From a virus: a stretch of DNA of 34,103 nucleotides. Below are positions 5,197-33,764 of the stretch, one piece after another; position 1 is the stretch's first letter; each line of letters starts with the position of its first letter. Where the stretch lies: the IMG/VR virus record IMGVR_UViG_3300006810_011822, positions 1-34,103 of that record; one strand, 5' to 3'. A program made the translations under genes and the position numbers. Below the pieces are notes generated by a model. That model saw only the letters and a list, made by a program, of their open reading frames with translations, was not told the origin of the DNA and searched no databases.

Positions 5197-6300
5197 TTAA
5201 GCACCTACGGGATTGTAACTCCCATCCTTCAGCTTACGAGCTTTGTCGTACGCGTACGGATTGAGGCTCCAGTAGTCTGGAATTTTATTATTCTCGGCTT
5301 CCTTCTTCTTGGGTGTGAATGACCATGGAGCGAGGAACGCCGCATGGGGTAATTCTTCCCGAGTTATCGGTGCTGAATGATCGAGGTTGTGTATGCACTC
5401 TTCCACTTCTGTAGCCATGTATGGGGCCATCGTGTGTTGTAGGTATACCCAGTCCTCGTCCTTGAGGTGATCTCTTACTCCTTCGTCATACTTACGTGCA
5501 GAGAACTCTGTGAAGAATTCCTCCGCATAACAGAATGACACTGGGAGATCCAGCGATTTCAACCCACCTATCCACTCCCCTGTTATTGGGTTAGTGGTTG
5601 ATTGGTCGAGTTCCAGTGTTCCATCCAGCAAGCTAGATGTTCCATCTTCCGTTTCCGGATCGCTTTGCGTAAGGTCCGCTCCAACGAATCGGAACGGGTA
5701 CTGTTGCTCAGCGTCCAGAGGGACCAGTGGATGATCACCAAACAGCTTAATGAAATCCCCGAGTTGAAACGGGGCTCTAGACAGCTGCCGACCGCCAATG
5801 GAGACGGCGGTCTTCATTGGGAGTAAACCCGGAATTTCCGGATACGAACTCAGCCTTAGCAATCCTCCCGGTGTGGCCACTTGCGTGTCCGGTCCGGTTG
5901 GTTGATGGGCGAACTCCTCGAGCTCGTTATACCGCGGCTTCGTCTGCCCTGTGAGCCAAGCACGCCCCTTGAAAAAGGGCACACCATACGCTCTCAGTTC
6001 AACATGCCTGAGTATTTGTTCCCACTTATTTCCTTTTCTTCGGAACATGGGAACGGATTGACCCGGTGCGAGGAAGGCGGTCTTTTCAGCGCCTCCTGCG
6101 GTTTTCCATGCATACATCAATTCGAAACGAATCATGAGTGTTGGATCTGCCATCTGTGCGGGGTCTGGGGACGCGACAGTGGCAGTGTTTGCTAAGTTTA
6201 ATGGAATCGATTCTGCATAAATAGCTTCCTGCTTAGCACAGGAAGTGGTATTTGAATAAGGCTGCAGTTCGAGTTGATTTAGTTTGTCTAATTCGGTCAT
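5197..6300 (-). CDS. Unknown 367-residue phage protein
   Basis: This is an acidic to neutral soluble protein with many Pro, Trp and Tyr residues. It has no signal peptide, membrane segment or known catalytic motif that I recognise. Segments such as FFKGRAWLTGQTKPRYNELE and the C-terminal DYWSLNPYAYDKARKLKDGS look like compact globular sequence. It stands alone as a single-gene unit, with a hairpin-rich 226-bp leader upstream and a clear terminator downstream. That arrangement suits a separately controlled, perhaps abundantly made product. The ATG is preceded by an A-run (AATAGATAAAAAAA) rather than a Shine-Dalgarno. A structural role or a role tied to the adjacent RNA polymerase-like gene is possible, but nothing in the sequence proves either. 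Confidence 0.75.
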   Translation of the reverse strand: MTELDKLNQLELQPYSNTTSCAKQEAIYAESIPLNLANTATVASPDPAQMADPTLMIRFELMYAWKTAGGAEKTAFLAPGQSVPMFRRKGNKWEQILRHVELRAYGVPFFKGRAWLTGQTKPRYNELEEFAHQPTGPDTQVATPGGLLRLSSYPEIPGLLPMKTAVSIGGRQLSRAPFQLGDFIKLFGDHPLVPLDAEQQYPFRFVGADLTQSDPETEDGTSSLLDGTLELDQSTTNPITGEWIGGLKSLDLPVSFCYAEEFFTEFSARKYDEGVRDHLKDEDWVYLQHTMAPYMATEVEECIHNLDHSAPITREELPHAAFLAPWSFTPKKKEAENNKIPDYWSLNPYAYDKARKLKDGSYNPVGA

Positions 6301-13981: not shown

Positions 13982-16900
13982 TTAACCCAATAACTCAGCA
14001 AGTTCAACAACTTCCTCACCTTTCGGTTTGGTTGACCACCGTTTGTTGTAGTCAGTGTCGATAGGGTAGTTCATTACCCGTTTGTGATAGGTCCATGTGT
14101 TCTTGTCACACATAAACTCTTGATGCAGTTCAGCCACGCGTGTGGCCTCCTCGAGGGGACATAATGTCACCACCGAGTCATACAAAATAATCAGGGGACG
14201 AGCCTTCATACTATTGTCCCTGAAATACCTCAGTAACCAATCTGCAGCTCTAGCGGCAGTTGCTGCCACCGACTCCTGCATAGGAAAGTTCCTGAGTTCT
14301 CGGCCAAGTGCGGCCAGTATCCTTCTCGCTTCCCGTCCCTTAGTTTGACCTAGTGGACAGTGGCGAATCCTCCCGGAAGCAGCACGGTATTTACCATCCC
14401 TATCAGGGACTTTCTCCATGTCTTCCAAGAATGCTACGGCTACTGGCTGACGCGCACGAAGCGCATCTAGGATTGCTTGACCTGTACCCTCCTCGGGCTT
14501 GATCCCCGTATCTTGCTCGATCTTTCTTTCGAGCGTGGTAGGTGATGCTCCATATGCTGTGGAGAAGTTTCCTACCTTACCGAGTCCTTTACGTTCCACC
14601 TTCTCGTTCAACACTTCGCGTGGCTTATGGGTTACCATTTCTGCCAACGACCAGTGTAGATCCGCTTTAGGGGATATCCGCTCTCCGTTATCATCCAATT
14701 CAAAGTCCGCGTCTGTGTGGAGATGTTCTGTAAACATACCGGGGGGTATGCCTAGGATATCGTCATAGGATACTCGTACATACTCATCCTTACCCTTCAG
14801 CTTTGCATACTGTTGGTCAGGTCGAGTCATGATGTTGATCAGCTTCTCGTCACCACTAATGAACGCTAGTCCACGTATCTCAGCAGTCTGATAATCTGAT
14901 TCGACAAAGCACCAACCATCTGGTGCTTTAACACACGAGCGTATAGATGGAGGTTTTTCCTCTATATAACGCTCAAATTCTTCAGGCAACTCGCCATGCT
15001 CTTTTGCATCTTCAAGAGCTGATTGGATACCTTGTTGTATCTTCTCATTCACATAGGAAGGCCAGTTAAGGATGTTGGGATTCCAACTCCTTGGCCGTCC
15101 TGTTTCTGTAGTACTCATCTGACCGTGAACCCGACCGTCTGAGCATAGTGATTCGTGCAGCCCTCTCTCTTCGGTTACCTGCCCCGTATCATCGGTGAGA
15201 GGTTCCTTGAGGAACTGCTTAGTTATATTACCCACAGCATTCAGCTTCAATAGCTGGCCCAACATCATGTCTCCATGAGTTTCATATAAGATCTCTAGCG
15301 ACTGGATGTCTGTAGATGGGTTGTATTCTTTCTGTGCTGCTGGGGGAAGTCTTAGTACTCGCGACCAAGCTGTAGATGGTAATCCTTTCTCTTTGTTACT
15401 AGTACTCTTAATTGGAGTATACCCTTTAACATCGTATAACCATCTGCGCATCTTTGGTGAGCTACGTATATTGAAGTCCGTGGAATCTAGGAAATGCTCG
15501 AAGTGTTGCTTCACCTGCTTCACGTATCCCACGGTCACAAATTTCTTAAGTACAGCCCATGCTTCATCCGCTTTGTCTGTCTGAGATAATGTTACTACTT
15601 CACTTACTACGTCTGCTACATCGTTTACTGGTACATTCTTCGACTCGTATGCTATGCTGAATACCTGCTTGTATAGTAGAGCTTCGGCTTCTTTAGCCAT
15701 CGCTTTCTTGAGCTGTATCTCCAGTCTGTCTCTCGCGTACGAGTATAGTTTTCTTAGTTCATCCAGCCGCTCTATATCTATCGGTAGTCCCAGTATCGCA
15801 AATGTTACGAAGATGTTTGTAACGAACGGGTGGAACATGTTGTAGTAGTACGGTAGTAATCCCTGCTGATTTAACTTCTTAATTATCTGCGGATAGGCTC
15901 TCATCACTGCATCCACATCTCGACACGCATATGGTATCAGGATGTCATCTGGTACGAAACCATATCCATTCTTTGTCGCGCCCTTACTCTTCTTCTTCCA
16001 CAATGTCAGGTCTAAATCATACCTTCCTAGATCTGTGTAGCGCATTGCTATGCCTCTCTCTAATCCTAACTCGGAATACTCATCGGCTGTCTGCTGCGCA
16101 AATTCACTATCGAATACACACTTATCAAAATACTCTAGACCTAACCACGTATACATCCACGGCGCATCAGCAGCGAAGTGATGCCCTATATATTTCACCT
16201 GTGGCTCATTCAGATAACTACCCAGTACCTCCCCCACATCAGCGTAGGGCACATCAAACACGTAGTTAAGCTCATCATCCATGAACCTTATGTAGCATGC
16301 TTTACCCGCAGACCAGCAAAACTGGATTGATCTCAATTGCCCATCCACATGATCTCCACCGTGCCACTCACAGTCAACAGAGAACACTATGTGTTGTTCC
16401 TCCTTCCACATCTGCACTAGCTCCTTGAGCTCTGCAATGTTGGTGATGGTTACATAGTCTTGTGGATGTTTGGGTATTTCCATACCCTGCAATCCTAATC
16501 GCATGTTATTGATCTCGCGAAAGTCCACTCGGAACTTCTCAATGTACTCAGGTTTGAATACCGGGAATGTGATGGGTTCCATGAGATACACACGTGCCCC
16601 AGTCTCCTTGTGGAGGAACCATCCTCCCCTTGCGTCCTTCATGTTGATCTTGATATCAACAATCTCATCGAACACTTTCTTACCTAGGCATATGATCACC
16701 TTCGGGTGTACCCTCTTGATCTCCTTGAGAGCGGAGGGTCTACCCCATGCCATCTGTTCCTTGGTAGGGTTGCTGGCATTACTCTTAGGTAGTACCCACT
16801 TACACCATGCTGTGAAATAACACTCTTCCACATCTATCCCGGCCGACAGAGCTATGTCCTTAAACACAGACCCTGCCTGACCTTTGAGATACGCTGCTTC

Positions 16901-17137
16901 CTGAGTGATCTTCTTACCAGTGATACTCTCTTGAAACTGCCTGCCTTCTTCCTCCAAACACGAGGATGATATGATCATCACATCTGCGTCTGGAGCCCCT
17001 TGACCGGCCACATACAAAATCATCTCCTGACCCGAGCGCTTCTTCTGCGTCTTCTTTATGTCCTGAGGTGGCGTGCCGATATAATCGGGCTGGGGCGCTT
17101 CTGGTGGTTTTTCGTTACGGTAATTCTTCTTGTACAT
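13982..17137 (-). CDS. polA: Family A DNA polymerase with UDG-like N-terminus and 3'-5' exonuclease
   Basis: This is the replicative polymerase of the phage (1051 residues). Residues 35-205 look like a uracil-DNA glycosylase superfamily domain (GQGAPDADVMIISSSC and HPKVIICLG), but the usual GEAPG catalytic loop is replaced, so it is probably inactive. The proofreading exonuclease has motif I SVDCEWHG (D255, E257), II GHHFAADAPWM (D324) and III YACRDVDAV (D407), all acidic residues kept. The polymerase has GQMSTTETGRPRSWNPNILN, motif A SDYQTAEIR (D748, E753), and motif B RKGLGKVGNFSTAYG (K854, F858; the Arg-754 equivalent appears to be Lys). It also has RNFPMQES and motif C YDS (D987), where HDE is usual, so the second acidic residue is Ser. 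The start overlaps the zinc-ribbon gene by 23 bp. No 5'-3' exonuclease domain is present. Confidence 0.92.
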   Translation of the reverse strand: MYKKNYRNEKPPEAPQPDYIGTPPQDIKKTQKKRSGQEMILYVAGQGAPDADVMIISSSCLEEEGRQFQESITGKKITQEAAYLKGQAGSVFKDIALSAGIDVEECYFTAWCKWVLPKSNASNPTKEQMAWGRPSALKEIKRVHPKVIICLGKKVFDEIVDIKINMKDARGGWFLHKETGARVYLMEPITFPVFKPEYIEKFRVDFREINNMRLGLQGMEIPKHPQDYVTITNIAELKELVQMWKEEQHIVFSVDCEWHGGDHVDGQLRSIQFCWSAGKACYIRFMDDELNYVFDVPYADVGEVLGSYLNEPQVKYIGHHFAADAPWMYTWLGLEYFDKCVFDSEFAQQTADEYSELGLERGIAMRYTDLGRYDLDLTLWKKKSKGATKNGYGFVPDDILIPYACRDVDAVMRAYPQIIKKLNQQGLLPYYYNMFHPFVTNIFVTFAILGLPIDIERLDELRKLYSYARDRLEIQLKKAMAKEAEALLYKQVFSIAYESKNVPVNDVADVVSEVVTLSQTDKADEAWAVLKKFVTVGYVKQVKQHFEHFLDSTDFNIRSSPKMRRWLYDVKGYTPIKSTSNKEKGLPSTAWSRVLRLPPAAQKEYNPSTDIQSLEILYETHGDMMLGQLLKLNAVGNITKQFLKEPLTDDTGQVTEERGLHESLCSDGRVHGQMSTTETGRPRSWNPNILNWPSYVNEKIQQGIQSALEDAKEHGELPEEFERYIEEKPPSIRSCVKAPDGWCFVESDYQTAEIRGLAFISGDEKLINIMTRPDQQYAKLKGKDEYVRVSYDDILGIPPGMFTEHLHTDADFELDDNGERISPKADLHWSLAEMVTHKPREVLNEKVERKGLGKVGNFSTAYGASPTTLERKIEQDTGIKPEEGTGQAILDALRARQPVAVAFLEDMEKVPDRDGKYRAASGRIRHCPLGQTKGREARRILAALGRELRNFPMQESVAATAARAADWLLRYFRDNSMKARPLIILYDSVVTLCPLEEATRVAELHQEFMCDKNTWTYHKRVMNYPIDTDYNKRWSTKPKGEEVVELAELLG

Positions 17138-17900: not shown

Positions 17901-19130
17901 TTATATATATTTTGCTATTAGTCGCCACGCGGTGGTCGTATCAGACATTTCACCTACGTCTTTATACTCTGGTGGTAAGGGTACCTCAACCAGTTCTACT
18001 TTATCCGCCAAAGCCCTGTATATAGACTTCTTTGATTCTCTTCCCGACGCATCGGCATCAGCTATAAATAATACTTTCCTAAACTTCCTTGCTATCAACT
18101 TACCTTGCTCTTCATTCAAATACTTACCTAGAAACGCTAGACCCGGAGGTCCCATTCTTCCTGCATCTAGAGGACCCTCCATCAGGCATGCCCACGGTGT
18201 CCCACTTGATTTATTACTCCATTCTACTGCGGCATCATAGCCTAGTACTACTCTACTTCTTTCTGTTCCATTGCCCGTCCTATACTTCGATGGTTTCCAC
18301 GCATAAGGTTCTTTCTTGTAATCCGGACGCAAAGTCCATATACCATTCACGCGAACGTGCGTCAACTCCCATCTATTCTGATACGGGTGCCAATGAAATT
18401 TTTGATCTCCTTCTATCTTATCAAGGATACGTGCCTGCCAACCTTCCTGTATACCTTTCACATCGATATAGAAGATTAGCCTCCCTTGGGGAGTGTCTTT
18501 AAATCCGCCCGGTAGTCTCCGATAGTACAGTTTGATGTCTGGGTTCTCAGGAGTCTCCATGTGGCAGAATGCACATCTAAACTGACGATACAGTGCTTCA
18601 GGATCGTAGCCCCTGTTCAGGAGATACTCCACAGCTGGGTGATCATCAGGTAATTCATTAATGGGTAGAGTGTGTCCGGGATGGTTGGGGATCATATTCC
18701 CCTTCCCGTCATCTACCAAATACTTCTCCCTGTCTACTGCGCTGTTGAACACAGTTCTCTTCACATTCTTAATCCCTCTCTTCTCCAAAGGGGGTAAACT
18801 CTTAAGCTGCTCCACAGTGTACTTGGTACCGTACTTGTGGCATACCGCGGAGAGTTCCTTGTTGTAGGTCCCCACCCGGTTGGTCCATTGACCCAGTCCC
18901 AGATACCTATCAGCGTTCACCGTCAAATGCTTACTCTGTAGTTCTTTCAGACCATCTTGCTCGAGGGCTTCAGGACTAGCCATGTACAGGTGTAGTCCAT
19001 GACCCTCACGACGGATGACCACTTCTCCGTGTACTCTTGAGAGGGCATTAGCCAGCAGCATGACCTGTCTGGGTATGTCCTGTCTCGCGAGTCCCTCGGA
19101 GGTTGAGATATCATCCGATTTGTCCTGCAT
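17901..19130 (-). CDS. dnaG: DnaG-type primase with Toprim domain
   Basis: The C-terminal part carries a Toprim fold. LMEGPLDAGRMG (E319 with DA) is followed by KVLFIADADASGRES (D358, D360), the E and DxD metal-binding residues of primases and topoisomerases. By family it makes RNA primers for lagging-strand synthesis. It has 409 residues, shorter than cellular DnaG (about 580). The N-terminal CHC2-type zinc finger is not visible; only scattered Cys/His (VCHKYG and RCAFCHME) appear. There is no fused helicase. It overlaps the winged-helix initiator gene by 20 bp and is followed after 3 bp by a zinc-ribbon gene. The order initiator, primase, zinc protein, polymerase supports a replisome operon. 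Confidence 0.88.
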   Translation of the reverse strand: MQDKSDDISTSEGLARQDIPRQVMLLANALSRVHGEVVIRREGHGLHLYMASPEALEQDGLKELQSKHLTVNADRYLGLGQWTNRVGTYNKELSAVCHKYGTKYTVEQLKSLPPLEKRGIKNVKRTVFNSAVDREKYLVDDGKGNMIPNHPGHTLPINELPDDHPAVEYLLNRGYDPEALYRQFRCAFCHMETPENPDIKLYYRRLPGGFKDTPQGRLIFYIDVKGIQEGWQARILDKIEGDQKFHWHPYQNRWELTHVRVNGIWTLRPDYKKEPYAWKPSKYRTGNGTERSRVVLGYDAAVEWSNKSSGTPWACLMEGPLDAGRMGPPGLAFLGKYLNEEQGKLIARKFRKVLFIADADASGRESKKSIYRALADKVELVEVPLPPEYKDVGEMSDTTTAWRLIAKYI

Positions 19131-20697
19131 ACCTCATGACCTGATCGGCACGTGTGATGTCTACGCCCAGTGCTTTGAGCTTAGTAGCCATACTCAGGCG
19201 TAAGTCAGCCTTCACCTTCACAAACGCAGCTTCATCATAGAAGTGGAACTCTGGATAGTCCTTGGCCATCTTGGACATGTAGACCGCCACATGCTTGTTC
19301 TCAGCCATCTCCTCTTCCAACTCATGAGTAGTCCGGGTAGCGAAATACTGCTTAGTGAGATGTGAGTAGCCTGTAGCATTCAGGATTGATATGATCGTGT
19401 ACAAGGGTTTGGAAGCCCAACCTCTGTACTCAATAACATTCTCAAACGTAAGTTCTCCCTTAGCCTCATGATCCTCAAGGTACGCAGCAGTCACACCAAG
19501 CGCTTTACGCAAGTTGAAGTACTTCGCCCCATCGGTATGCCGTCTCCACTTCCAGCACAGATCCACACGCTCCACCTGCTTTTCGTTGGTGAACTTCTCA
19601 CGAATCTTCCGGGAATTGAGCAGCACATACCTCAGGTTGAGATCTTCACGCCCTTTGATCTTCAGGAAATAGTTTATCTCACGAGCATGCTCAAGCGTGA
19701 TCTCACCTGTACGCCACCTACGCAGCAGCATTCTAGCGAGCTCTGGAGTGATTCTCTCTTGGTTGGAGATCTCCATGAGAAGCGCATGCATCTCCTTGCC
19801 TACCGGGGTAAAGGAGATCCAGTTCATGGCCTTACGTGCTGTGCACTGACCAGCCATGTAATCCACCTTCTCAGGATTCTTGTACGGCTTGCTGTAGCGC
19901 TTTCCAAGCTTGGTCTTCTCCGGGGGAGTAATTGGCTGTGGGTCTGTTTTTGCCTCATACGAGTTAGCGTGCTTCTCTGCATGCTTCTCCGGGAATAGGG
20001 ATCTGTTGAGAGATCTTCTCCATCCAAGTATTTTGCGCTGGTCAAGCTTTGGAGCATAAGGGCACTCCTGAACTACCCCATGCATGTTCGCAAGTTTTTG
20101 AGCTATGTGTCTAGCTCTAGCCTGAGCACAAGAGATCCTTGTAGGCACCTGCGGTGCGGGAGGAGAAAAAGAAGAAAAGCCATCCGCAGGATAATCACTC
20201 TCCCCGGAAGCCATAGGCTCCGGTTCAGAGTTAGGAGATAAATTATTTATTAATAATTTATTAAGTGGCGGCTTATTCGGAGACCCCCCATCTTTTGGGC
20301 TGTCCTCCTCTATTTTAGGGAGCTTCAGGCTGATCACATAATACCACTTACAGTAGCTATCACGGGATATCACATGCTTGATATAGCCCTTCTTTTCGAG
20401 CGATGTCATCCACTTTGTGACTGTGTCTTTGGATGCCAGTTCACCCGGCTGATTTGCCAGCAATTTCTTGATGCATGCTTTGTTCACCACGAAACCTGAA
20501 GGAACACTTAACATGTACATTAATATCAATCTTTCCGAAGAAGTCAGGTTAGGATCATTAGCGATTTGGAACGCAGGAAACATGCTCACTTCAGTATGCT
20601 TGTCCCAGAGCGTTGCTTCTCCGACCATTGCTTGATATTCTTCTTCCCGAACTGTTGCTGGGAGTATTTTAACTTCTTTGGTTATTTTGTTTGCCAT
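19111..20697 (-). CDS. Winged-helix putative replication initiator / replisome organiser
   Basis: Residues about 50-125 read as a winged helix: LTSSERLILMYML, then DTVTKWMTSLEKKGYIKHVI, the pattern of phage replication organisers and plasmid Rep N-termini. A Ser/Pro/Asn-rich linker (about 135-175) follows, then a large helical C-terminal region (about 175-528), lysine- and arginine-rich at first (RKILGWRRSLNRSLFPEKH). By analogy with phage replication proteins of similar layout, it would bind the origin and recruit the helicase. An AT-only palindrome is embedded in the linker-coding part, as origins sometimes are in such genes. The start ATG follows a TATAATAATA leader with no Shine-Dalgarno. 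It overlaps primase by 20 bp. Family placement is uncertain. Confidence 0.65.
   Translation of the reverse strand: MANKITKEVKILPATVREEEYQAMVGEATLWDKHTEVSMFPAFQIANDPNLTSSERLILMYMLSVPSGFVVNKACIKKLLANQPGELASKDTVTKWMTSLEKKGYIKHVISRDSYCKWYYVISLKLPKIEEDSPKDGGSPNKPPLNKLLINNLSPNSEPEPMASGESDYPADGFSSFSPPAPQVPTRISCAQARARHIAQKLANMHGVVQECPYAPKLDQRKILGWRRSLNRSLFPEKHAEKHANSYEAKTDPQPITPPEKTKLGKRYSKPYKNPEKVDYMAGQCTARKAMNWISFTPVGKEMHALLMEISNQERITPELARMLLRRWRTGEITLEHAREINYFLKIKGREDLNLRYVLLNSRKIREKFTNEKQVERVDLCWKWRRHTDGAKYFNLRKALGVTAAYLEDHEAKGELTFENVIEYRGWASKPLYTIISILNATGYSHLTKQYFATRTTHELEEEMAENKHVAVYMSKMAKDYPEFHFYDEAAFVKVKADLRLSMATKLKALGVDITRADQVMRYAGQIG
20204..20264. other. Candidate replication origin inside the initiator gene
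   Basis: An imperfect hairpin (20204-20223; CCGG and AGCC arms with one bulge) is followed by a 27-bp run containing only A and T (20238-20264). Within that run AAATTATT (20240-20247) and AATAATTT (20252-20259) are a perfect inverted repeat. The run is far more AT-rich than the surrounding coding sequence and falls in the interdomain linker. It could be a DNA unwinding element. No clear iterons were found beside it. Confidence 0.35.
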
Positions 20698-20903
20698 TTT
20701 TAAGTATTATTATAGTTTTAATCCGCTGCCTGTTGAGGCATTGGTTTTGTCATTTTTACTAATGCTATTCGGCCGGTAGCGAAGGTACCTTTGAAAGGGA
20801 GTGAGGTTTTTGATTTTTTTCCCTCACTCCCTTTTCTTTTTGTAACTTCTGGCTCATAACGATGCGTATCCTAAATTATGTGAACGTCCCCGTCAATGAT
20901 TTT
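20698..20903. other. 206-bp intergenic region with a long hairpin
   Basis: This gap separates the helicase gene from the initiator gene. It holds a perfect 13-bp inverted repeat, AAAGGGAGTGAGG (20794-20806) with CCTCACTCCCTTT (20822-20834), and a T-rich 15-nt loop. It is followed on the plus strand by TCTTTTTG. It is thus shaped as a plus-strand terminator, although no plus-strand gene lies nearby. It may act on antisense transcripts or be part of an origin or leader. The TATAATAATA leader of the initiator gene is at the left end. Confidence 0.5.
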
Positions 20904-22328
20904 TTACCAATTTTCTAATCTTTGGTACTCATAACGTCTCCGTACACCCGGTCTACCGCCTTTACCCTTACGTGCCTTACTGACACACAAGTACTGCTGC
21001 TCAGCCCACATAACATCATCACCCTCAACGGCATTGTCCATACGATCATCATACAGAGCGGTCAGTCCCACGAAGGAGGTAATCCCCTCAATCATGTTCT
21101 TGGCCTCACCGATGTTCCTGTGATCCAGAACCTTCTTATTGATGCTGGTAGCCTGTGTAGCCTGCGCTAGTGCAATTGCTGACGTGTTGAATTCCTGCGC
21201 CACGTATCTCACTTGATCCATGGCATCCTTGAACAACCACCTTATCTCGCCCGGATCTCCACGACCCTCGGATAAAGCACCACCTACCCAGTCCAGTATA
21301 ATGTACTTGGGGTCGCGCTTGTACTTGTCCTTGAAGCGTATTACTTCTTCACGCAGCTCCGACACAGCATGCCCCGGAGATGTCCAGTCAACGAACTCCA
21401 GTATGCCCTTGACACTATTGCGGAAGCGATCGTACTGGTACTTGTAATTCTCGGGCAGTTTCTCAGGATCGAATCCACGCACAATCATATCGAATGGTAT
21501 CTGTGCAAAGTTCGAAATCATTCTGAGCTCGAGGTCCTCTTGCGGTTGCTCTGTGGTTACCAGAATACCGTCAATGCCCTTACACATCCAATCTCCTGCG
21601 AGCTGGCATGCGAGTACTGTCTTACCTCCAGAGGAAGGTGATATGATCAGGTTACTTTCACCTAAACCAAATCCTCCACCCAACGCCTCGTTGAGTCCTT
21701 TCAGATTTGTCTCCAGCACCCTTGCATCGGGGCTGAGATCCACTTTCACGTTATCCACGAAGTGACCAAACGCATGGCGCTCAGTCTTATCTCCAGACAA
21801 CCCAGCAGTCTTCTGATCCACCTGTTCCAGTAATGACTTCAAGCTATGCAGGCACCAACCACCAAATGCAGCTGATGACCTCACGGCCTGTTGTGTCTTT
21901 TGTGCTTGTATCCAAGGAACGAAGCCCATATCAGCGACAGGTCTCCATCGTAAGGCATCCAGTTCTAGAGCCTGACGAAAGAAGTAGAGTGCTTGTGGGA
22001 TTTCGTCCGCGAGAATATCTTCACCATCATGTGACTTGTTTGTGAGCATTACCTGCATCACTGCTTCATTGATGGGTACAAAAGGTCTGTCCGGGTAATT
22101 CAGTTGGGCGCTGTTGTAGATGTCTACTGCGCGGTAGACCGCATTCCTGAGCAGTTGCGAGAAGTCATCTTGCTCTCCCTTACCACTCAGGTCCTTGCAG
22201 AGGATGGGCTGGATCTTGCGGTAGAAATCCGCATCCTTTATGGCGCAGCCGAGAATTATATTCTCGAACCATTCGGGCTGCTGCTTGATGTATGTCTCAA
22301 TCTTATTTTCTACTCCTGCCTCAGCCAT
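20904..22328 (-). CDS. dnaB: DnaB-type replicative DNA helicase
   Basis: This is a RecA-fold hexameric helicase expected to travel 5'-3' at the fork. Walker A is SPSSGGKT (230-237), the catalytic glutamate is in LVTTEQP (E260), and the Walker B strand is YIILDWVGG. A conserved segment, NTSAIALAQATQATSINK, matches the DnaB stretch ending in a sensor Gln. The next stretch, EAKNMIEGITSFVGL, parallels the DnaB DLRESG/IEQDAD area. The N-terminal 200 residues are helical and would be the collar domain, without the standard DnaB N-domain motif. Its length of 474 matches DnaB (471). The start lies inside the preceding gene (19-bp overlap), pointing to coupled translation with a possible loader. Confidence 0.88.
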   Translation of the reverse strand: MAEAGVENKIETYIKQQPEWFENIILGCAIKDADFYRKIQPILCKDLSGKGEQDDFSQLLRNAVYRAVDIYNSAQLNYPDRPFVPINEAVMQVMLTNKSHDGEDILADEIPQALYFFRQALELDALRWRPVADMGFVPWIQAQKTQQAVRSSAAFGGWCLHSLKSLLEQVDQKTAGLSGDKTERHAFGHFVDNVKVDLSPDARVLETNLKGLNEALGGGFGLGESNLIISPSSGGKTVLACQLAGDWMCKGIDGILVTTEQPQEDLELRMISNFAQIPFDMIVRGFDPEKLPENYKYQYDRFRNSVKGILEFVDWTSPGHAVSELREEVIRFKDKYKRDPKYIILDWVGGALSEGRGDPGEIRWLFKDAMDQVRYVAQEFNTSAIALAQATQATSINKKVLDHRNIGEAKNMIEGITSFVGLTALYDDRMDNAVEGDDVMWAEQQYLCVSKARKGKGGRPGVRRRYEYQRLENW

Positions 22329-23529: not shown

Positions 23530-26004
23530 TTACACGCAATGGACCCTAAACCGGTCCTCAAGCTCACTTAGGGTGTCTACTATGGTTATATCATAGCCCT
23601 TCTCCTCGTAGCAATTCTTGCGCTGGTTACTCTCTCGGATCATACTCCATACACCACCTCGCCCGTCTCTTCCTGCTCCTCCATCAGGTACGAATAGGAA
23701 GTCAAACAGTACACCGCATTTCTTATTCGGCCGTACTTCAACAACTCTACCGGGCTTCTGGATGGTGCTAGCGTATGGTCCACCTCCACACAGATTGAAT
23801 ACTGCGCGTACGTGGTTGAAGGTAATACCTGTGGAGTATATCTCGGTGGCCAGACATCTCTTGATATCCGCCTGCTTCATACGCTCCGTAGTTGCATCAC
23901 GCTCTTTAGCAGTCATGCGCTTTGCCATGACTATCGTACCCTGCTCGCCTACGAACTTCTTATAGTACTCAGCCTGATCCTCGTTCTTAATGAACATGAT
24001 CGACTGCCAGTCCTCGGGTAGTATCCCTGAGGAGATCTCTGATACCAACCTAGCCATGCACTCGTTCTGATGAAGAAGCGCTTTGTAGGTATTGGTATGA
24101 TCACCCCAGTTCTGTATCTCCAGTGGTACTCTCAACATGAACACGCGTAAGGGAGCAACCGCTCCTTCAGCTACTGCCTCAGGAAAAGTTCTCTCGCTTA
24201 GCACAGGACCCATCAGGCCCTTGATAACTAGTTCCCTGTTATCGTAGCGCTCCTTGAGTGTAGCACCAAAGCCCAGCTTGCGAGCCTTGTGGAAACTGTG
24301 CAGGATAGGTAGTCTGGAATTCGTGACAGCCATGTGCGGTTCATCGATCAGGATCAACCGTGTCTTACTTGGCTCACACTTATGCATGCTATCTATGCTT
24401 GCGACAGTTATATCATCCCCTTGGTATTTCACCCTAGAACCTGCACCTATCAATTTCACATCCCTACCCGGCATGTGCTCTTTCACATCCTTGTAGAGTT
24501 GCTTTACTAGATCAGTACCGGGTGCGGTAAGGATAGATGGTATTCCCGGATACGCCTTGAGCGTATTCAGCATGAGATACGTATTATGAGTTATTGTGAA
24601 GTTACCTAAAACAAATTCTTGAGTATCTCCTTCTATTTGCATACCACAATACTTATCCACACCTAAATGCTCTACCTTAAATCCAGTAGTTAATGGGTTC
24701 CCTCTTTTATGTCGGGGACTCATACTTATTTCTTCTGTGAATCTTGGAGTCTTAAATGGTATTTCGTCTATGTTTCCAGATATCTGGAATCTAAAGTATT
24801 CTCTAGGTTCTTCCCAGTCATCCAATTGTACCCATTTGGAAGTATAATTGCACCTGAATCCAAGAGACCTACAAAGATGAAGAAAAGAGTCACGTAGTCC
24901 TTCATACTTTGTAGTAAACTCTAAAGATTTACCATTGTTAACAGAACCGTCTGTATCAAGTAATCCAGCCAATAATTGCATCCTTATGTCTACGCTATTA
25001 GCTAAGTACTCTTTTGGTATAGTTCTACTATTAGCTATTACTGACTCCCAGTATCTAGAGAATTCATAATTCGATTTAATACGAATAAGATACGTGTTTT
25101 TATTTATAGTCTCAGAATAGTCCTCTGCCCAACTCTTCACATAATCCGCAACTGCTTTTTTCTTCTCAACACCTAGGGTTATATACGGACCGCTTGTGTG
25201 CCCATCACCAATAAAAGATCCAAGTATATAAGGATCAAAAGGGACATCCCGCCCCGATAGTTTATCCAACTTTGCTTGAACCTGCTTGAATATGTGTTTT
25301 TTACTTTTAGGCCATGTGAGATACTCATCTAATCTCACATGTATTTTATCTCCTTTATTTATTCCTGAGTATTGACCACTACAATTGCATTGCAATACCA
25401 ATATATGATCTTGGGTACATATCCAAGATTCTCCTTTTTTAGGTGTTATGCGGTACATTTCATCAGTACCTTGAGTTACGTTTTCAACTCGCTTAGGTAG
25501 TGAGTCAGAACCCATAACATAATCACCTATAACTATATCCTTAGCTTCCTTTCTAGTTATACCATCTCCCATAAGTATATCAGTGTTCTCATGAACACAT
25601 TTACCATATCGCGTAGGAGCTCCCACCAATCCACTGCAATCTTTTGCCAGTGCTGATGTGAGTAATTGTTTCTGGTTAAATCTGAATCCTCCCATGTTAC
25701 CCAATTTGGGTTCTGGAAAGGGCAGACGTTTATCGTGTAGCTCCACCGTATCACCAGCTGCTTCGCTGGCTTCTTTTACGTGTTGCCACAATCCTTGAAA
25801 TGTCTGGACCGCTTGGTGTCCAGCATTATCCCTCCCGACATCCTTATATAAATGCACCTTACGATAGATTGTTCTTCTTTCCCAAGGTCTAGTAGGATCG
25901 GGAGCACCAAAGCTTTTCTCTGTGTATGTCAGCGCTTCCTTTATCGCCCTCGTGAGAGGAGCTATAGTCAATGCGCCGTCATCCCAGATGAGATGTACTC
26001 TCAT
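23530..26004 (-). CDS. SF2 helicase (UvsW-like) interrupted by an intein
   Basis: Without its intein this is a 485-residue superfamily 2 helicase. The P-loop is GAPTRYGK-T (128-135, then 475), motif II is LILIDEPH, motif III is GFGATLKER, and motif VI is QKPGRVVEV. T4 UvsW (503 residues) has a similar size and role, remodelling recombination intermediates and R-loops. The resemblance is by motifs and context with SbcCD, RecA and RNase H. Residues 136-474 are an intein inserted exactly between the P-loop Lys and Thr, so the helicase is inactive until splicing. The gene overlaps the next upstream gene by ATGA. The extein is about 45-53% GC in sampled lines; the intein is about 30-37%. Confidence 0.85.
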   Translation of the reverse strand: MRVHLIWDDGALTIAPLTRAIKEALTYTEKSFGAPDPTRPWERRTIYRKVHLYKDVGRDNAGHQAVQTFQGLWQHVKEASEAAGDTVELHDKRLPFPEPKLGNMGGFRFNQKQLLTSALAKDCSGLVGAPTRYGKCVHENTDILMGDGITRKEAKDIVIGDYVMGSDSLPKRVENVTQGTDEMYRITPKKGESWICTQDHILVLQCNCSGQYSGINKGDKIHVRLDEYLTWPKSKKHIFKQVQAKLDKLSGRDVPFDPYILGSFIGDGHTSGPYITLGVEKKKAVADYVKSWAEDYSETINKNTYLIRIKSNYEFSRYWESVIANSRTIPKEYLANSVDIRMQLLAGLLDTDGSVNNGKSLEFTTKYEGLRDSFLHLCRSLGFRCNYTSKWVQLDDWEEPREYFRFQISGNIDEIPFKTPRFTEEISMSPRHKRGNPLTTGFKVEHLGVDKYCGMQIEGDTQEFVLGNFTITHNTYLMLNTLKAYPGIPSILTAPGTDLVKQLYKDVKEHMPGRDVKLIGAGSRVKYQGDDITVASIDSMHKCEPSKTRLILIDEPHMAVTNSRLPILHSFHKARKLGFGATLKERYDNRELVIKGLMGPVLSERTFPEAVAEGAVAPLRVFMLRVPLEIQNWGDHTNTYKALLHQNECMARLVSEISSGILPEDWQSIMFIKNEDQAEYYKKFVGEQGTIVMAKRMTAKERDATTERMKQADIKRCLATEIYSTGITFNHVRAVFNLCGGGPYASTIQKPGRVVEVRPNKKCGVLFDFLFVPDGGAGRDGRGGVWSMIRESNQRKNCYEEKGYDITIVDTLSELEDRFRVHCV
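24583..25599 (-). mobile_element. LAGLIDADG intein in the helicase P-loop
   Basis: This is a 339-residue intein. The N-terminal block is CVHENTDILMGDG (Cys1 nucleophile), block B has TQDH (198-201 of the precursor), and the C-terminal block ends VLGNFTITHN with the final His-Asn and Thr as the +1 residue. Between these, ILGSFIGDG and LAGLLDTDG are the two LAGLIDADG endonuclease motifs, so homing activity is plausible. All splice-site residues are present, so it should splice. Its lower GC than the flanking extein points to separate acquisition. Confidence 0.9.
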
Positions 26005-26483: not shown

Positions 26484-26498
26484 TCTACCAGATCTTAA

Positions 26499-27131
26499 TT
26501 AAGATCTGTTAGGTTGTCCATTGTTATTTCTTTTTTTACCCTGCGGTTTACCCTGCGATTGTTTCTTCTTAGGCTGCTTTTTCTTAGGAGGGTTCAGCCG
26601 CCTATCCATTACAGGATACTCTTTCGGATTACGATTGTATGCTGGTCTGGATGGAGGTGTCTTAGACCGAGGTATATTCCTTTGCAAATTCTGACCACGC
26701 ATCGTCTTGAGGTGCTTAGCAAGCCTGTTCCGATCTCGGGTAAGACCCATACCAGTTACCTTAGCTCCAAACAGCTCACGCATCATTGTGAACGGATTCT
26801 GATAAGGATTAGCTCCTCCACCGGGTTCCTTGCCGGGACCGACATTACGTACTCCGCGTTGAAAAACATCCTTCATAGGCGTCGTGCCTCTTGAAGTAAG
26901 ACTCTCATATCTTCCCCTCCAAAAAGGTTCAAGTACGCTCTTCGTGTCTCGAGTTTTTTGCGTCAGCTTCTCCAGTTTCTTGGTGGGGTCTCTCCTAAAG
27001 AGTGCTCCACGTTGGAAAAACCCTCCACCAATACCTTGGCGTCTGAGGTGATTTAAAAATTTCAGTGTCTGATCTCCTGCTGCCGCCTCTTTGATAAAGT
27101 TGGCCACAAGTAGCTGTTCCCGGTAAGTCAT
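26499..27131 (-). CDS. Basic protein with T4-like head-targeting N-terminus
   Basis: This 210-residue, strongly basic protein ends in a Lys/Gln/Pro/Asn-rich tail (about 175-210), likely disordered and nucleic-acid-binding. The N-terminus MTYREQLLVANFIKEAAAG contains I-K-E-A. That fits the (Leu/Ile)-x-Glu cleavage rule of the T4 prohead protease and resembles the T4 capsid-targeting start MKTYQEFIAEA in length and pattern (inference). It sits between the SbcC gene (4-bp gap) and helicase genes, an odd place for a structural gene. It could be an internal head protein delivered with the DNA. The alternative is a plain DNA-binding accessory of the recombination operon. Confidence 0.65.
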   Translation of the reverse strand: MTYREQLLVANFIKEAAAGDQTLKFLNHLRRQGIGGGFFQRGALFRRDPTKKLEKLTQKTRDTKSVLEPFWRGRYESLTSRGTTPMKDVFQRGVRNVGPGKEPGGGANPYQNPFTMMRELFGAKVTGMGLTRDRNRLAKHLKTMRGQNLQRNIPRSKTPPSRPAYNRNPKEYPVMDRRLNPPKKKQPKKKQSQGKPQGKKRNNNGQPNRS

Positions 27132-27135
27132 ATAC

Positions 27136-29685
27136 TTATCTTAAGTTAATAGTTTCTTGAAATGAACTTTGCAATTCTGGTTTATGGTCACATACGATAA
27201 TCTGTGCTTCGGTATGCTGCAACTGTTCTCCTAGGGTGGAAAACAATTCTTTCATAGCCTCTACACCGTCATCATCTATGTGTGTGCTGGGCTCATCCAG
27301 CACCAGAAAAGCGATATCCGGTATCACCAGCTGCTGTATGGCTAACAAGTAAGCTATGCTCACGCGTACCTTCTGGCCCCCTGACAGCTTGGTCTGGGGC
27401 ATCCACCCACTCTCCTCATCCGTCAGTTTCATGAACTGTATGGTAACCGGGGAATCAGGGTTGGGCTCTATCACGAAGTCCGCACCTAGGGTATTCAGGT
27501 TATCCTGCGCGATAGGGGTAAGGTTCTCAAACACGTATTGTAAGTACGCCTGTGGGATTCCTTTCTTGTTGAATGCCTCCTTCAGATTCTTCAGATCTGA
27601 AACTACTCGTTGTCTCAATTTATCCTGCTCGATGTGTTGTTCGATCTCATCCAATCTTTTCTGCACTCCATCGGCCTGTTTCTCAGCTTGATCCACTTGT
27701 CCTTGTAGGCTGTTATACTCAGTCGCATTCTCTTTTAATTCCCTCTCTATCTGGTCGTAATTACTGCTGTGCTTATCAATGACTTTCAAGGTAGTCTCGG
27801 GTAGACCCATAGCATGCACCTGAATAGCCTCCTTCATCGATTGCTGATATTGCTGATGCACCTGCAGCTCTGTCTCGCTGGTCTCTATGGACTGCGCTGT
27901 AGCTTTGACCAAATCTATGATCTTATCGTCAGAGTTCTTCAGCCTGATCTCCTGCCTCTTCTCGAGCGCATACTGCAATTCATTATTCTTGAATTCCCAT
28001 GTGGCATCGCTCCACTGAGCCATGGCCTCTGCATCCTCTTCAGTGATGGGACCTAGCCCTAACTCCAAGGATTGTATCTCACGAGCTAAACTAGCCTTCT
28101 GCAGGTGGGCTTCATCTGCGCTCTTTCCTGCCTGTTGCAAGCTCTCTATCGTTGCTTCCAAATCTCCTATACTGTGTACGGGAATGTTCCTGAGCTCCTT
28201 ACTCAACTGAATGATATTCTCCTGCTCCAGTTTAATACTCTGCTGTAAACCTTCTATCCGGGTATTAGTGGAGTTGCTCTTGCCGATCAAAACATTCTTA
28301 GCGGAGGTGGCTGAGAAGGACTTCTCCTTCAGTTCCCTTGCTTCCGCCTTGGCCTGCTTCATCTGGATTATCCAGTCCGTAGGATCTTGATGTGCACTCT
28401 GCCCACATAGCGGACAATTTCCATCTTCACTATTCCCGGAGTTTATAAGGCTCTCTAGAGCTAGCTCCTTACCATGCACCAACATGTATGCTGCCTGAGC
28501 TTCATCTGCTGCGAGTTGTGCCTTTTTTATTTCCTCGTCTGCTGGTGGAGGTGGTATCTCTTCCAGCTCCTTTTGCAAGGATTCCAATCTAGCTGCATAC
28601 ACGCCTGAGATGTCGTCTGTTAATTGCTGCCTGTGCTGTTGTATCCTGAGGTCTTCTCGTAGTGCATCTATCTCGCCACTATGATCTGCTGTTCCTTCTA
28701 GGTACTCATCTAACTCTGCTATCTTCTCCAGTAACTTCTCCCTGTGCTCGTCGCACTCTTCCTTTGCTTGCTTCCTTGCTTTTATCCTACCTAGGTCAGT
28801 CACTTCTCTGGACAATGTGTCGATGTCAGTCTCCAACTGTTGAACTGCTTCCAGCGCTGTGTTGATTGTCGCGTGCTCTATTCCCAGTACTGTCCCTATC
28901 TCGGTGACAGTCATGTTTACTTCTTGCTCCGCTACTTCTATCTGGTGCTTTAATTCTTTCTTCCTATTCTGTGATACTTGGAAATCCTCCACTGCCTCTC
29001 GGTACTTAGCGAATAATACTTGGTCTTCATTCCAATCATGCTCTGCCTGTAGCTTGGTCTCCAGCTCACCTAAGTTCTCTTCGGCTTCAGTGTGCTGTCC
29101 CTTCAGTTCCGTGAGGAGCGTAGTATAGTCCTGCACTTGACTTAGTAGTATGCGTGACTGCTGGTCTGCAGCATCGCATACTTTATTCATGAAACCCACG
29201 AGGAGTAGCTTGGTGAATAGCTCCAGTCTTTCTCCGGGTGTACCGAATAGGAGTTTATCCAGTGAGCCCTGTGGAGGGAATATAGCATTTGCTCTAGCCT
29301 CCTTATCAGCATCGAAGATCTCCTTCAGCTTCTCTTCTATGTCAGCTACCTTGGTGATCTCCTCACCTTCCCACTTCAGGAACCGTCTAGGATTGGTACC
29401 TATCTGCCTGAAGATCTGGCCTACCTTCCCGTCCTTTATGAACTTCAGATATACCTTGGCATTCTTAGGCTTATCTACATCCGGCCCGTCCTCTAGGAAC
29501 CAGTTACGCACGTAGGTTTCATTCTTATCTGGTAATATACCCGTGAAGGCAAATTTGATTGCTTCAAGTATGGTAGACTTACCAGATCCATTTATTCCCA
29601 TCAAACCAACGACGGGAACATCCATGTCTATATCCAGTAACTTATGCAGTCCAAAGTCCTGGATTTTTAAATGTTGAATCCGCAT
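27136..29685 (-). CDS. sbcC: SbcC/Rad50-like ATPase (T4 gp46-type)
   Basis: This is the SMC-like ATPase subunit of the SbcCD/MR nuclease, which processes DNA ends and hairpins for recombination. Walker A is GINGSGKS (30-37), a long coiled coil follows, the zinc hook is CPLCG (424-428) in the centre, and a second coil leads to the ABC signature KLSGGQKVRVS. Walker B with the D-loop is FLVLDEPSTHID. Its length of 849 lies between T4 gp46 (560) and E. coli SbcC (1048). The start is inside the end of the sbcD gene (44-bp overlap), with a purine-rich AGAAGAG just before it. Confidence 0.93.
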   Translation of the reverse strand: MRIQHLKIQDFGLHKLLDIDMDVPVVGLMGINGSGKSTILEAIKFAFTGILPDKNETYVRNWFLEDGPDVDKPKNAKVYLKFIKDGKVGQIFRQIGTNPRRFLKWEGEEITKVADIEEKLKEIFDADKEARANAIFPPQGSLDKLLFGTPGERLELFTKLLLVGFMNKVCDAADQQSRILLSQVQDYTTLLTELKGQHTEAEENLGELETKLQAEHDWNEDQVLFAKYREAVEDFQVSQNRKKELKHQIEVAEQEVNMTVTEIGTVLGIEHATINTALEAVQQLETDIDTLSREVTDLGRIKARKQAKEECDEHREKLLEKIAELDEYLEGTADHSGEIDALREDLRIQQHRQQLTDDISGVYAARLESLQKELEEIPPPPADEEIKKAQLAADEAQAAYMLVHGKELALESLINSGNSEDGNCPLCGQSAHQDPTDWIIQMKQAKAEARELKEKSFSATSAKNVLIGKSNSTNTRIEGLQQSIKLEQENIIQLSKELRNIPVHSIGDLEATIESLQQAGKSADEAHLQKASLAREIQSLELGLGPITEEDAEAMAQWSDATWEFKNNELQYALEKRQEIRLKNSDDKIIDLVKATAQSIETSETELQVHQQYQQSMKEAIQVHAMGLPETTLKVIDKHSSNYDQIERELKENATEYNSLQGQVDQAEKQADGVQKRLDEIEQHIEQDKLRQRVVSDLKNLKEAFNKKGIPQAYLQYVFENLTPIAQDNLNTLGADFVIEPNPDSPVTIQFMKLTDEESGWMPQTKLSGGQKVRVSIAYLLAIQQLVIPDIAFLVLDEPSTHIDDDGVEAMKELFSTLGEQLQHTEAQIIVCDHKPELQSSFQETINLR

Positions 29686-30805
29686 TCTCTTCTTTCATTT
29701 CTTCCATTACGTAGTCTGTTACCACACGCCTGTGATCCTGTTCTGGATCACATAATGTCAGGGCTACAGAATACAACTTAGTATTGGCAGGGATGTAGTC
29801 CGCTACGAAGTCCTGTGGTTTCTTCAACCGCAAGAGCTCCTCGTTCTCTCCTCCCACTCCCAATATATGCGCCGCATTTATATCTGCGAACGCTGCACAT
29901 CTCAGTAGAGCTTTACTACCTACCAAGACAGTCCTGAACATAGCAGGGATAGAGTGCATTCGACGATCATACTTGATCAATACTATAGGGTCTTGGTCTA
30001 CGTATGACTTCAGGTCCGCGAGGGCAATCTCTGCCTCCTCTTCGCTGTGTATGCGATAAACCAACGACATACGTGTGGGTATCGATATGTGCTTCAGACT
30101 ATCCACATTGGTGATAACCTTCTTCTCTATCTCCAGCATAGTCACAGACTTCTCCGTGGATTCCACACGCGAGCATAACTCTATGGAGTCCGGATAGCCT
30201 ATGAGACACTCATCCACTATTTTATACTTGCAGGTGTGAATGTCTCCCAGCAGGATAGCTTTGTACTTATCTGTGGGGTAGTCTGCGATAGACAGCGCAT
30301 CCTTATCTGCAGGGAACGCACAGAACTCTTTTACAAGCTCATGCGATAGCAGTATGTCAGCATCTGGCCATCCCACTTGGCGGAACGCTCTCGCTCCTAC
30401 ACTCGGTAGCCCATACACAGTCATCCCTGTGTCCCCTATGGGTAGCGTCTTGTTATCGGCATTGATAATACCGCTAGTCTTCTTACTAGAATCCTGCCTT
30501 GTCTCTTCATCCAATATAGATATCCAACTTGGCCGAGCTAAATCATGATTACCACTGATCACAAACATTGGTATGCCTGCAGATCTCAGTCGCTTATCGA
30601 TCTCGGTAAGATCCTGTATATTCCGGGAACTGGGTCGTCGGTTGTTCAGAATGTCTCCACTGTTGAAGATAGCTTTCACACCGTAGCCCATGCATACGTC
30701 AATTACGGTGAAAGCGGCATTCGTGAAATCATCTCCCCTATTAGGTGAGGCAAACTGGCTGTCCCGTAGATGCCAGTCTGCTGTGTGAGCATATAAGTCT
30801 CCCAT
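29642..30805 (-). CDS. sbcD: SbcD/Mre11-like nuclease (T4 gp47-type)
   Basis: This is the metallophosphoesterase nuclease partner of SbcC. Metal-binding motifs are TADWHL (D10, H12), NSGDIL (D51), SGNHD (N86, H87), then LLSHEL and LGDIHTC. By family it is a Mn-dependent dsDNA exonuclease and endonuclease that trims ends for RecA-type recombination. Length is 387 (T4 gp47 339, E. coli SbcD 400). The ATG overlaps the RNase H-like stop as TAATG, and the 3' end overlaps sbcC, so the complex is probably translated as a coupled pair. Confidence 0.93.
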   Translation of the reverse strand: MGDLYAHTADWHLRDSQFASPNRGDDFTNAAFTVIDVCMGYGVKAIFNSGDILNNRRPSSRNIQDLTEIDKRLRSAGIPMFVISGNHDLARPSWISILDEETRQDSSKKTSGIINADNKTLPIGDTGMTVYGLPSVGARAFRQVGWPDADILLSHELVKEFCAFPADKDALSIADYPTDKYKAILLGDIHTCKYKIVDECLIGYPDSIELCSRVESTEKSVTMLEIEKKVITNVDSLKHISIPTRMSLVYRIHSEEEAEIALADLKSYVDQDPIVLIKYDRRMHSIPAMFRTVLVGSKALLRCAAFADINAAHILGVGGENEELLRLKKPQDFVADYIPANTKLYSVALTLCDPEQDHRRVVTDYVMEEMKEENADSTFKNPGLWTA

Positions 30806-31750: not shown

Positions 31751-31880
31751 CTTCAGTAGTTTGACTATCTCCCATACCTATCATATCTTTGAACCACTTA
31801 ACATGTCTTAAACGAGGTGGTCGAAATTGATTGGGACTGCGAGTATCAAGGTACTTCGCGGGTGAATGGGAGTCTGCCAT
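31677..31880 (-). CDS. Small unknown acidic protein, first gene of the minus-strand string
   Basis: This 67-residue protein begins MADSHSPAKYLDTRSP, with a basic middle (RPPRLRHVKWFKD) and an acidic end (TEDDNEEEFEEG). Longer forms would start inside the terminase gene and are not favoured. The leader reads ACATAATAAT directly before the ATG, as at the SSB-like gene. Its start lies about 6 bp from the divergent terminase start, so both promoters must lie within the other gene or be leaderless. It is unknown and only moderately supported as a gene. Confidence 0.5.
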   Translation of the reverse strand: MADSHSPAKYLDTRSPNQFRPPRLRHVKWFKDMIGMGDSQTTEDDNEEEFEEGRTVSADDLTGRFDP

Positions 31881-31886
31881 ATTATT

Positions 31887-33764
31887 ATGTATATTGATAT
31901 TAACTGGGAAGCAAGGACTAATGGGCGCTTCCGGCATAAGCTGGATACGCTCGTAAATGAGATTGCTCGTCTTGAAAAGATCGGCTCTCCTGCTGCGGAA
32001 GACAAGATCAAAAATCTCACCGTAGAGATCTATCGACTCTGCCATCACAACCCCGGATTCCTCATTCCTTACTTCTTTCCCAAATTCCATCCTCAGGATA
32101 GATTTGGTGAACCAAACCCTACACCACTGTCGCTACAAGATCGACCATATGCTTTTGCGATCTTCTATTTCCAGATAGGGGGATTCATTGTTTTCCGGGC
32201 CTCTCGCCAGATTGGTAAGTCCACTTCTATCGCATGCAGGCAGCTTATTAACGCCCACATCGTCAAGAAATATAAGAGCTTGTATATCACTCCTCACCAA
32301 GAATTCTTAACCACGTATGCTAACCGTCTCAAGGACATGGAGCGGGAATTTAGATTCCAGCGTACCAACCCTGATTTGCGGAGTAACCTGAAGTACAAAG
32401 AACAGGACAACGGCAGTACGATCACACTGGTTAAGTGTTTGACCGACTCTGCTGAAGCGCGTTCTAAAACTGCTGATGAGTTACTCTACGATGAGTACCA
32501 GTTGCTGGACCCTGACCTTGAGCCTGACATTGAACAGACTCAGAAGGCGTCTTCTATGCCCTCCACCGTATACGCTGGCACGAGTACCACAATCGAGTCT
32601 CCGCTCGAGTGCAGGTTCCAAGAGTCCAGCATGGGGATGTGGCATATCAAAAGCCCAGACGGAAAGCACTGGATTAACTGTGGCGATGAGGAAGAGATCC
32701 TCAAAGTCATTAAACCTGAAGGACCAACCTGACCTTACTCTGGTCGGTTACTGGATGTAACCCAAGGCACCTTCGTCCACGCTAACGAGCGAATGATGTA
32801 CGAAAACCAAATAGGATTCCATATCCCACAAATAGCCATCCCCGATTACGCCCACGACATTGTTAAGTGGCGCGAGATTTACCGGGTCTTCAAGAAGTAC
32901 GATCACAAGAAATTCCTACAGGAGGTTCTTGGTATCCCAACTGAGGAGGGCTCGCGAGAGATTACCCTGCAAGACCTCAAGGACATATGTGTGTTGCCTG
33001 AGATGCCTGAGACTCTCATGAAGAAAGCCAAAGCGCATGCCTACCGGCACATCGTTAGCGGTTGTGACTGGGGTGGTTCCGACTATAACCCGGCTGACAA
33101 GACTAAGGTGTCGTACACCGTGCATGTCATCATCGGCATCACGCAGGACTGGAAGATCCATATCCTGCATATGCGTCAGTACAGCGGTATGGACTACCGC
33201 ACTATTTCCCACCATATCTTAGAAGACCACAAAGCATATTGTGGTCAAGCTCTTGGAGCTGACTTTGGTGTAGGTGGTGCTTACAACATGCTCATTCGCG
33301 AATCGGGCAATGTGGCAGTCGAGAAGCACCTTATCTTTCAGTACACAGGTCCAGATACCTCTCCGGTATCCAAGCCCACTAACTCCGCTCTCTTCAATCA
33401 CTGGACACTCAACAGGACCGAATCCATAACTGAGCTCTTCCGTGCTATTCGAGAGAAGGAAATTCTTTGCTTCCCATGGGGCGAGGCTAAAGACCTGCTC
33501 ATGGACATTCTTAACATGTATCGTATCCCCGCAGAAACGGCCGCTGGGAAGACTGGCTTCCTTTATCGCCGTCATGGGGCTAAAGCAGACGATACACTCC
33601 ACGCTTTAAACTTTGCATACGTGATTGCACGCTTGTATATGAAGCATCCTATTATGCACGATAAACAGTTGGAGTACACTATGCGTCGTAACCTCGGCAT
33701 AGGTGGTGGAGGTAACGACGATTACTTAGGAGGATGGCCCAACACTGGGCTCATCAAGGGTTAG
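31887..33764 (+). CDS. terL: Terminase large subunit, frame broken by one in-frame UGA
   Basis: This is the DNA-packaging motor: an ATPase that translocates DNA plus a nuclease that cuts it. Walker A is FRASRQIGKS (103-112), Walker B with the catalytic Glu is LLYDEYQ (D202, E203), and the coupling-like motif is YAGTSTT. Nuclease acidic residues are in SGCDWGG, GADFGVGG and AKADDTLHAL. Codon 282 is TGA, but the same frame continues without a gap, reading PYSGRLLDVTQGTFVHANER into the nuclease. The UGA stands where GPT-x-PYSGR would fit a Cys of a small zinc-knuckle-like loop (with C265). If read through, the protein is 625 residues, the normal size for the family. The start is ATG at 31887, or possibly 31866. 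Possible explanations are readthrough, selenocysteine, a split protein restarting at ATG 32793, or a mutation or sequencing error. Confidence 0.85.
32730..32762 (+). other. In-frame UGA with SECIS-like hairpin in terL
   Basis: UGA (32730-32732) is followed by C, a weak termination context. After 13 nt comes GGTTAC-TGGAT-GTAACC (32746-32762), a perfect 6-bp stem with a 5-nt loop whose second base is G. Nineteen nt separate the UGA from the loop, within the range usually quoted for bacterial SECIS elements. The size is the same 17 nt as the E. coli fdhF upper hairpin, GGUUGCAGGUCUGCACC. The bulged U of fdhF is not present here. Confidence 0.4.

Follow-up and report, generated by a model that had tools for sequence, protein, structure and literature searches.

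Replication block and candidate element

The window, which here denotes the whole stretch of DNA analysed, is the 34,103-base IMG/VR record IMGVR_UViG_3300006810_011822 from an uncultured bacterial virus, whose terminase matches suggest a tailed phage. The minus strand contains a replication block with genes for an SF2 helicase interrupted by an intein, a 219-residue unknown protein, a DnaB-like helicase, a 528-residue putative initiator, a primase and a family A polymerase. The features discussed below are:

13982–17137, minus strand: family A DNA polymerase with an N-terminal uracil-DNA-glycosylase-like domain (profile matches)
17901–19130, minus strand: toprim DNA primase (phrog_47, 1.2e-22)
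19111–20697, minus strand: putative replication initiator, 528 residues (PHROG profile matches, AlphaFold2 model, Foldseek partial matches)
20904–22328, minus strand: DnaB-like replicative helicase (Pfam DnaB_C, 2.9e-8; phrog_19, 7.2e-22)
20197–20264: candidate intragenic origin, consisting of H1 and H2, its extent inferred from the L003 family of relatives
20197–20231: H2, a G+C-rich hairpin (20204–20223) with an outer 5-bp stem (20197–20201/20227–20231), the proposed initiator-binding site
20238–20264: A/T-only run of 27 bp containing H1, the proposed unwinding element

The start of the primase gene overlaps the end of the initiator gene by 20 bp. In the polymerase, the uracil-DNA-glycosylase-like domain (residues 45–201) is fused ahead of the exonuclease and polymerase domains. 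Matches to the terminase large subunit are divided between two successive ORFs, 31866–32732 and 32793–33764 (profile positions 58–223 and 286–550 of phrog_675), both on the plus strand, opposite the replication genes, as in a split gene, an intron or a frameshift. The genome with the palindromic candidate origin also carries SbcC- and SbcD-like genes (27136–29685 and 29642–30805, both minus strand), annotated as a palindrome-specific endonuclease. Other inverted repeats include a 13-bp stem (AAAGGGAGTGAGG / CCTCACTCCCTTT) at 20794–20834, in the gap between the helicase and initiator genes, and a 20-bp perfect palindrome (CAGATCTTAATTAAGATCTG) at 26489–26508, where two genes join.

The 528-residue protein is a putative replication initiator, a role resting on weak profile matches to two families of replication initiation proteins (phrog_428, E 3e-6; phrog_270, E 9.5e-5) and to a DnaD-like helicase loader (phrog_186, E 2.9e-4). 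The resemblance to all three is confined to the winged helix (residues 44–156); the phrog_428 match is partial, covering residues 44–152 and profile positions 96–213 of 455, and is given by only one of the nine members. The AlphaFold2 model, with a mean pLDDT of only 58, predicts an N-terminal winged helix (residues ~40–121), a disordered linker (~122–283) and a helical C-terminal domain. Foldseek returned only partial matches to the winged helix, all at E of 0.06 or above and none at E ≤ 0.001; these neighbours are repressors, for example of the PerR and MarR types. Searches with tblastn of 50,697 phage records gave no match for the window initiator or for that of the relative L003, and none for the primase in phage records; a search of IMG/VR by sequence likewise gave no match for the window initiator.

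H1 and H2 lie within codons ~146–165 of the initiator ORF. The first-pass annotation had described a 27-bp A/T-only run with a perfect 8-bp inverted repeat, next to an imperfect hairpin, in the linker-coding part of a winged-helix protein. The run is present at 20238–20264 and the hairpin at 20204–20223, and both repeats fall in codons of the linker that AlphaFold2 predicts to be disordered. The inverted repeat is indeed perfect, but its arms (20238–20261) are 10 bp rather than 8, with a 4-nt loop. H2, CCGGAAGCC-ATA-GGCTCCGG, has eight pairs and one bulge.

The A/T-only run is the longest in the window, the second longest being 14 bp, and when the gene was shuffled synonymously 2000 times a run of 27 bp never arose; it arose in one of 200 first-order Markov copies made of the window. 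An arm of 10 bp is no rarity at the scale of the window, being present in 2 of 30 such copies. The fold energy of H1 and H2 together was matched in 15 of 2000 synonymous shuffles, that of H1 alone in 84 and that of H2 alone in 14. Along the window's initiator gene, the element is the third-lowest segment in fold energy, with a z of −2.5 against −3.4 at nt 826. By itself, the window palindrome is suggestive; it becomes convincing because the same place recurs in relatives.

Conservation in related genomes

Relatives were collected by a polymerase search, which gave eight loci, and by a primase pattern, which added L099; further scans gave no new contig. L004 is identical to L002 over 21,147 bases and was counted once. 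The nine distinct genomes are thus the window, L002 and the seven members of the L003 family (L003, L005, L006, L007, L008, L009 and L099). A toprim search gave at least 80 loci; one of those listed, L010, duplicates the L005 contig, and 79 others, short matches of 27–36% identity, were left out, as were L090 and L092, which matched no replication protein. A host search in the genome contigs found no host; it gave 17 pattern matches, at chance level only and none confirmed.

The order helicase, initiator, primase is found in all nine genomes, followed by the polymerase except in L099, where the block reads helicase, initiator, primase. The initiators of the window and L002 share 27% protein identity, and together they match the L003-family initiators over the C-terminal domain (hhalign probability 94.6, E 7e-8). 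The L003 initiator has the same domain order as the window protein in a predicted structure with a mean pLDDT of 57.

Several of these genomes differ in inserted elements. In the window, an intein with a homing-endonuclease domain (residues ~136–473) splits the SF2 helicase (23530–26004, minus strand); tblastn suggests that it is absent from the same place in L002, L003, L005, L006 and L009, and that an insert is present there in L008 and probably in L007. The family A polymerase gene is split in L005, L007, L008 and L009 by inserts of ~0.8–1.4 kb, one per gene or, in L009, more; some are at the same residue (~859), and they are perhaps inteins or introns. L002 also has an 11-bp stem (6058–6083) in its helicase–initiator gap.

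Short-loop inverted repeats were located in each initiator gene, and the gene-wide score of their strongest cluster was compared with 400 synonymous-codon shuffles. The strongest cluster lies just past the winged helix in all nine genes (gene nt 432–576): at nt 437 in the window, at nt 507–576 in L002, where it has three repeats, and at nt 432–483 in the other seven. Its significance against the shuffles is strong in some genes and weak in others. Of 400 shuffles, the score was reached by 0 for L002, 3 for L007, 5 for L006, 19 for L003, 22 each for the window and L005, 24 for L099, 32 for L008 and 68 for L009. Across the genomes the element consists of two inverted repeats (three in L002) of 15–24 nt, accompanied by an A+T-rich dip that falls within or next to them. 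Tandem inverted-repeat sites of ~18 bp are present in every gene, the second site of the window being bulged. The lowest-GC 50 nt of the gene lie at the element in the window and L002; in L003, L005 and L007 the A+T dip at the element is shallower and the gene's lowest GC lies elsewhere.

Folding gave a similar picture. In all seven initiators tested of the nine, the fold energy of the element alone was reached by 0 to 15 of 2000 synonymous shuffles, and a sliding fold scan against such shuffles in six of the nine genes placed the lowest segment in or overlapping the element in five (z −6.2 in L002). Among all genes of a genome, those with hairpin clusters at 1/150 or better number 5 of the 51 in G001, where the initiator ranks first, 4 of the 90 in G004, where it falls outside the top nine, and none of the 25 in the window, where it ranks third. 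Of 29 coding inverted repeats that have counterparts between G004 and G007, 6 retain every pair, and two of these are the linker pair, the sole neighbouring two.

What is kept among the diverged lineages is the position of the repeats. The hairpins of the window and L002 lie at aligned codons (NKLLINNLSPN and NRILLDSTPN, then the next block) with no evident shared sequence: the first is ATAAATTATT-AATA-AATAATTTAT in the window and TAGAATCT-TATT-AGATTCTA in L002, and the second is CCGGAGCC-TAT-GGCTTCCGG and CTCACCGAC-CAA-GTCGGTGAG, respectively. The absence of the palindrome from close relatives had been named in advance as evidence against the proposed origin; its position is retained in all nine genomes, but its sequence is not. 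In L007, an inserted codon in H2 produces a longer stem and not a broken one. Covariation is unavailable within the L003 family because the H2 arms hardly vary.

No direct repeats of 10 nt or longer within 250 nt were listed in the linkers of the nine genes, the sole exception being a 10-nt match in L006 that extends to nt 472, and no convincing imperfect repeats (iterons) were found in four linker regions. The motif TTCCGGG occurs in all nine linkers (in another reading frame in L006); it is not claimed as an origin motif, since it is enriched about twofold genome-wide and is not confined to the linker.

Codon agreement was scored where L007 and other members of the L003 family share a residue. 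Codon identity reaches 0.95 in the best 20-codon window of the linker, compared with 0.49 over the initiator gene, and in alignment columns 151–160 all 43 of 43 codons are identical. The corresponding maxima in the neighbouring genes are 0.69 for the primase and 0.68 for the helicase (six of seven genomes used), and column permutation reached the observed linker maximum in 2 of 2000 trials. In these relatives the codon-constrained stretch continues for a further ~60 nt along the gene direction, towards lower window coordinates. The sole other equally frozen stretch is the C-terminal end of the initiator, which overlaps the start of the primase gene in the L003 family and serves as a natural control. 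This overlap is ~110 nt long (L003:6394–6503 and counterparts), with codons almost fully frozen. The near-frozen linker codons therefore indicate selection on the DNA or RNA itself and not only on the protein. On the evidence of these genomes, a nucleic-acid element in the initiator gene is real and conserved.

Origin reading and alternatives

We consider it somewhat more probable than not that the element is a lambda-like replication origin inside the initiator gene, without repeated iterons. Dimers of the winged-helix domain would bind at least one inverted repeat of the gene that encodes them, and melting would follow in the neighbouring A/T-rich DNA, which in the window is the 27-bp A/T palindrome. 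The helical C-terminal domain may then recruit the phage DnaB-like helicase, encoded next door, after which synthesis would be started by the primase and the family A polymerase, whose genes lie beyond the initiator gene on its opposite side. Because the repeats of a linker are unlike, equal binding of the two by a single protein is not expected; probably only one kind of repeat is the initiator site and the other unwinds or folds as a single-strand hairpin. GC skew, which had been suggested as a check, is essentially of one sign over the 73, 121 and 101 kb contigs of three relatives and does not switch at the initiator gene. The earlier proposal of a lambda-like origin thus gains from the linker position in nine of nine genomes, the strong constraint on synonymous codons among the L003-family genomes and the lambda O control described below, but iterons and a skew switch are both absent. 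In a variant that we regard as unlikely, only the shape of the origin would be conserved: a hairpin pair would be kept at fixed codons irrespective of sequence, and the initiator, helicase or primase would recognise the extruded hairpins. This would amount to structure-specific initiation in a lambda-like setting.

The chief rival, to which we give roughly one chance in four or five, is that the tandem hairpins act in the initiator mRNA, through ribosome pausing between domains, mRNA stability or autoregulation. The element does sit between protein domains, and its sense strand folds strongly relative to synonymous shuffles. Members of the L003 family have sense-strand G–U pairs, one at the end of H2 in L009 and three in the upstream hairpin, but so do they have sense-strand A–C mismatches (two cells, upstream hairpin), which are G–U on the other strand, and the wobbles therefore do not choose between the strands, or between RNA and DNA. 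Rfam gives no family match for the window, L002, L005 or L007. Moreover, H1 of the window consists entirely of A–T pairs and is weak as RNA (MFE −4.6), and a function in mRNA leaves unexplained the A/T-only run that no synonymous shuffle reproduced.

A DNA site of another kind, either an operator for self-repression of the initiator or a recombination or packaging site, appears distinctly improbable. Inverted repeats of 17–24 bp are typical of operator sites, and the repressors among the Foldseek neighbours of the winged helix would suit such a role. However, the site is not at a promoter but over 400 nt into the gene, and promoter-like matches in the region number 3, against a shuffle mean of 4.2. 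Chance combined with codon bias, by which an AT-rich string of codons (Asn, Lys, Leu, Ile) became palindromic by accident, is largely refuted by the relatives, and we consider it very improbable. The frequencies of 10-bp arms in Markov copies and of H1-like folding in shuffles would allow for it, as would the fully kept coding repeats of G004 and G007, two of which are the linker pair; against it stand the A/T-only run, the recurrence of the repeats at one position across three diverged lineages and the frozen linker codons of the L003 family. The origin reading is preferred because the place and anatomy of the element resemble those of the lambda origin.

Comparison with the lambda origin

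As a calibration, the same two statistics, fold z and inverted-repeat cluster, were run blind on lambda gene O. The lowest fold z (−5.68) is at nt 351 and the best cluster at nt 350 (3 of 150 shuffles), which coincide with the annotated iterons (gene nt 349–433). The scan, which combines inverted repeats compared with synonymous shuffles and codon freezing, finds the lambda origin blind and could be applied to initiator genes generally.

According to PMC6022878, the lambda origin contains four 18-bp hyphenated inverted repeats and an adjacent 39-bp A/T-rich stretch inside gene O, and a flexible linker joins the two domains of the O protein. Like the present element, it lies inside the initiator gene, in the linker DNA between the N-terminal DNA-binding and C-terminal domains, and combines tandem inverted repeats of ~18 bp with A/T-rich DNA, a feature that is clear in the window and L002 and shallower in L003, L005 and L007. 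H2 of L006 and L009, TCTCTG-AAAAC-CAGAGA, resembles TCCCTC-AAAAC-GAGGGA, the first of the lambda inverted repeats to be found. In the available parts of a small sample of papers on intragenic, hairpin or lambda-type phage origins (including PMC6022878 and PMC3349717), the element is not described.

The element differs from the lambda origin in having no repeated iteron, its two inverted repeats (three in L002) being of unlike sequence; for that reason it is not classed with the lambda-type iteron origins. The A/T-rich part in the window is itself a palindrome and precedes H2 in the gene direction, whereas that of lambda follows the repeats. Additionally, the initiators described here match O-like families only weakly, and a DnaB-like helicase, a primase and a family A polymerase are all encoded by the phage itself. 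If the origin reading is correct, phages with their own helicase, primase and polymerase, a lineage whose initiator has no relative among the phage records searched, would possess a testable origin readable from sequence, and the lambda habit of placing the origin in the linker codons of the initiator would extend to phages without origin iterons.
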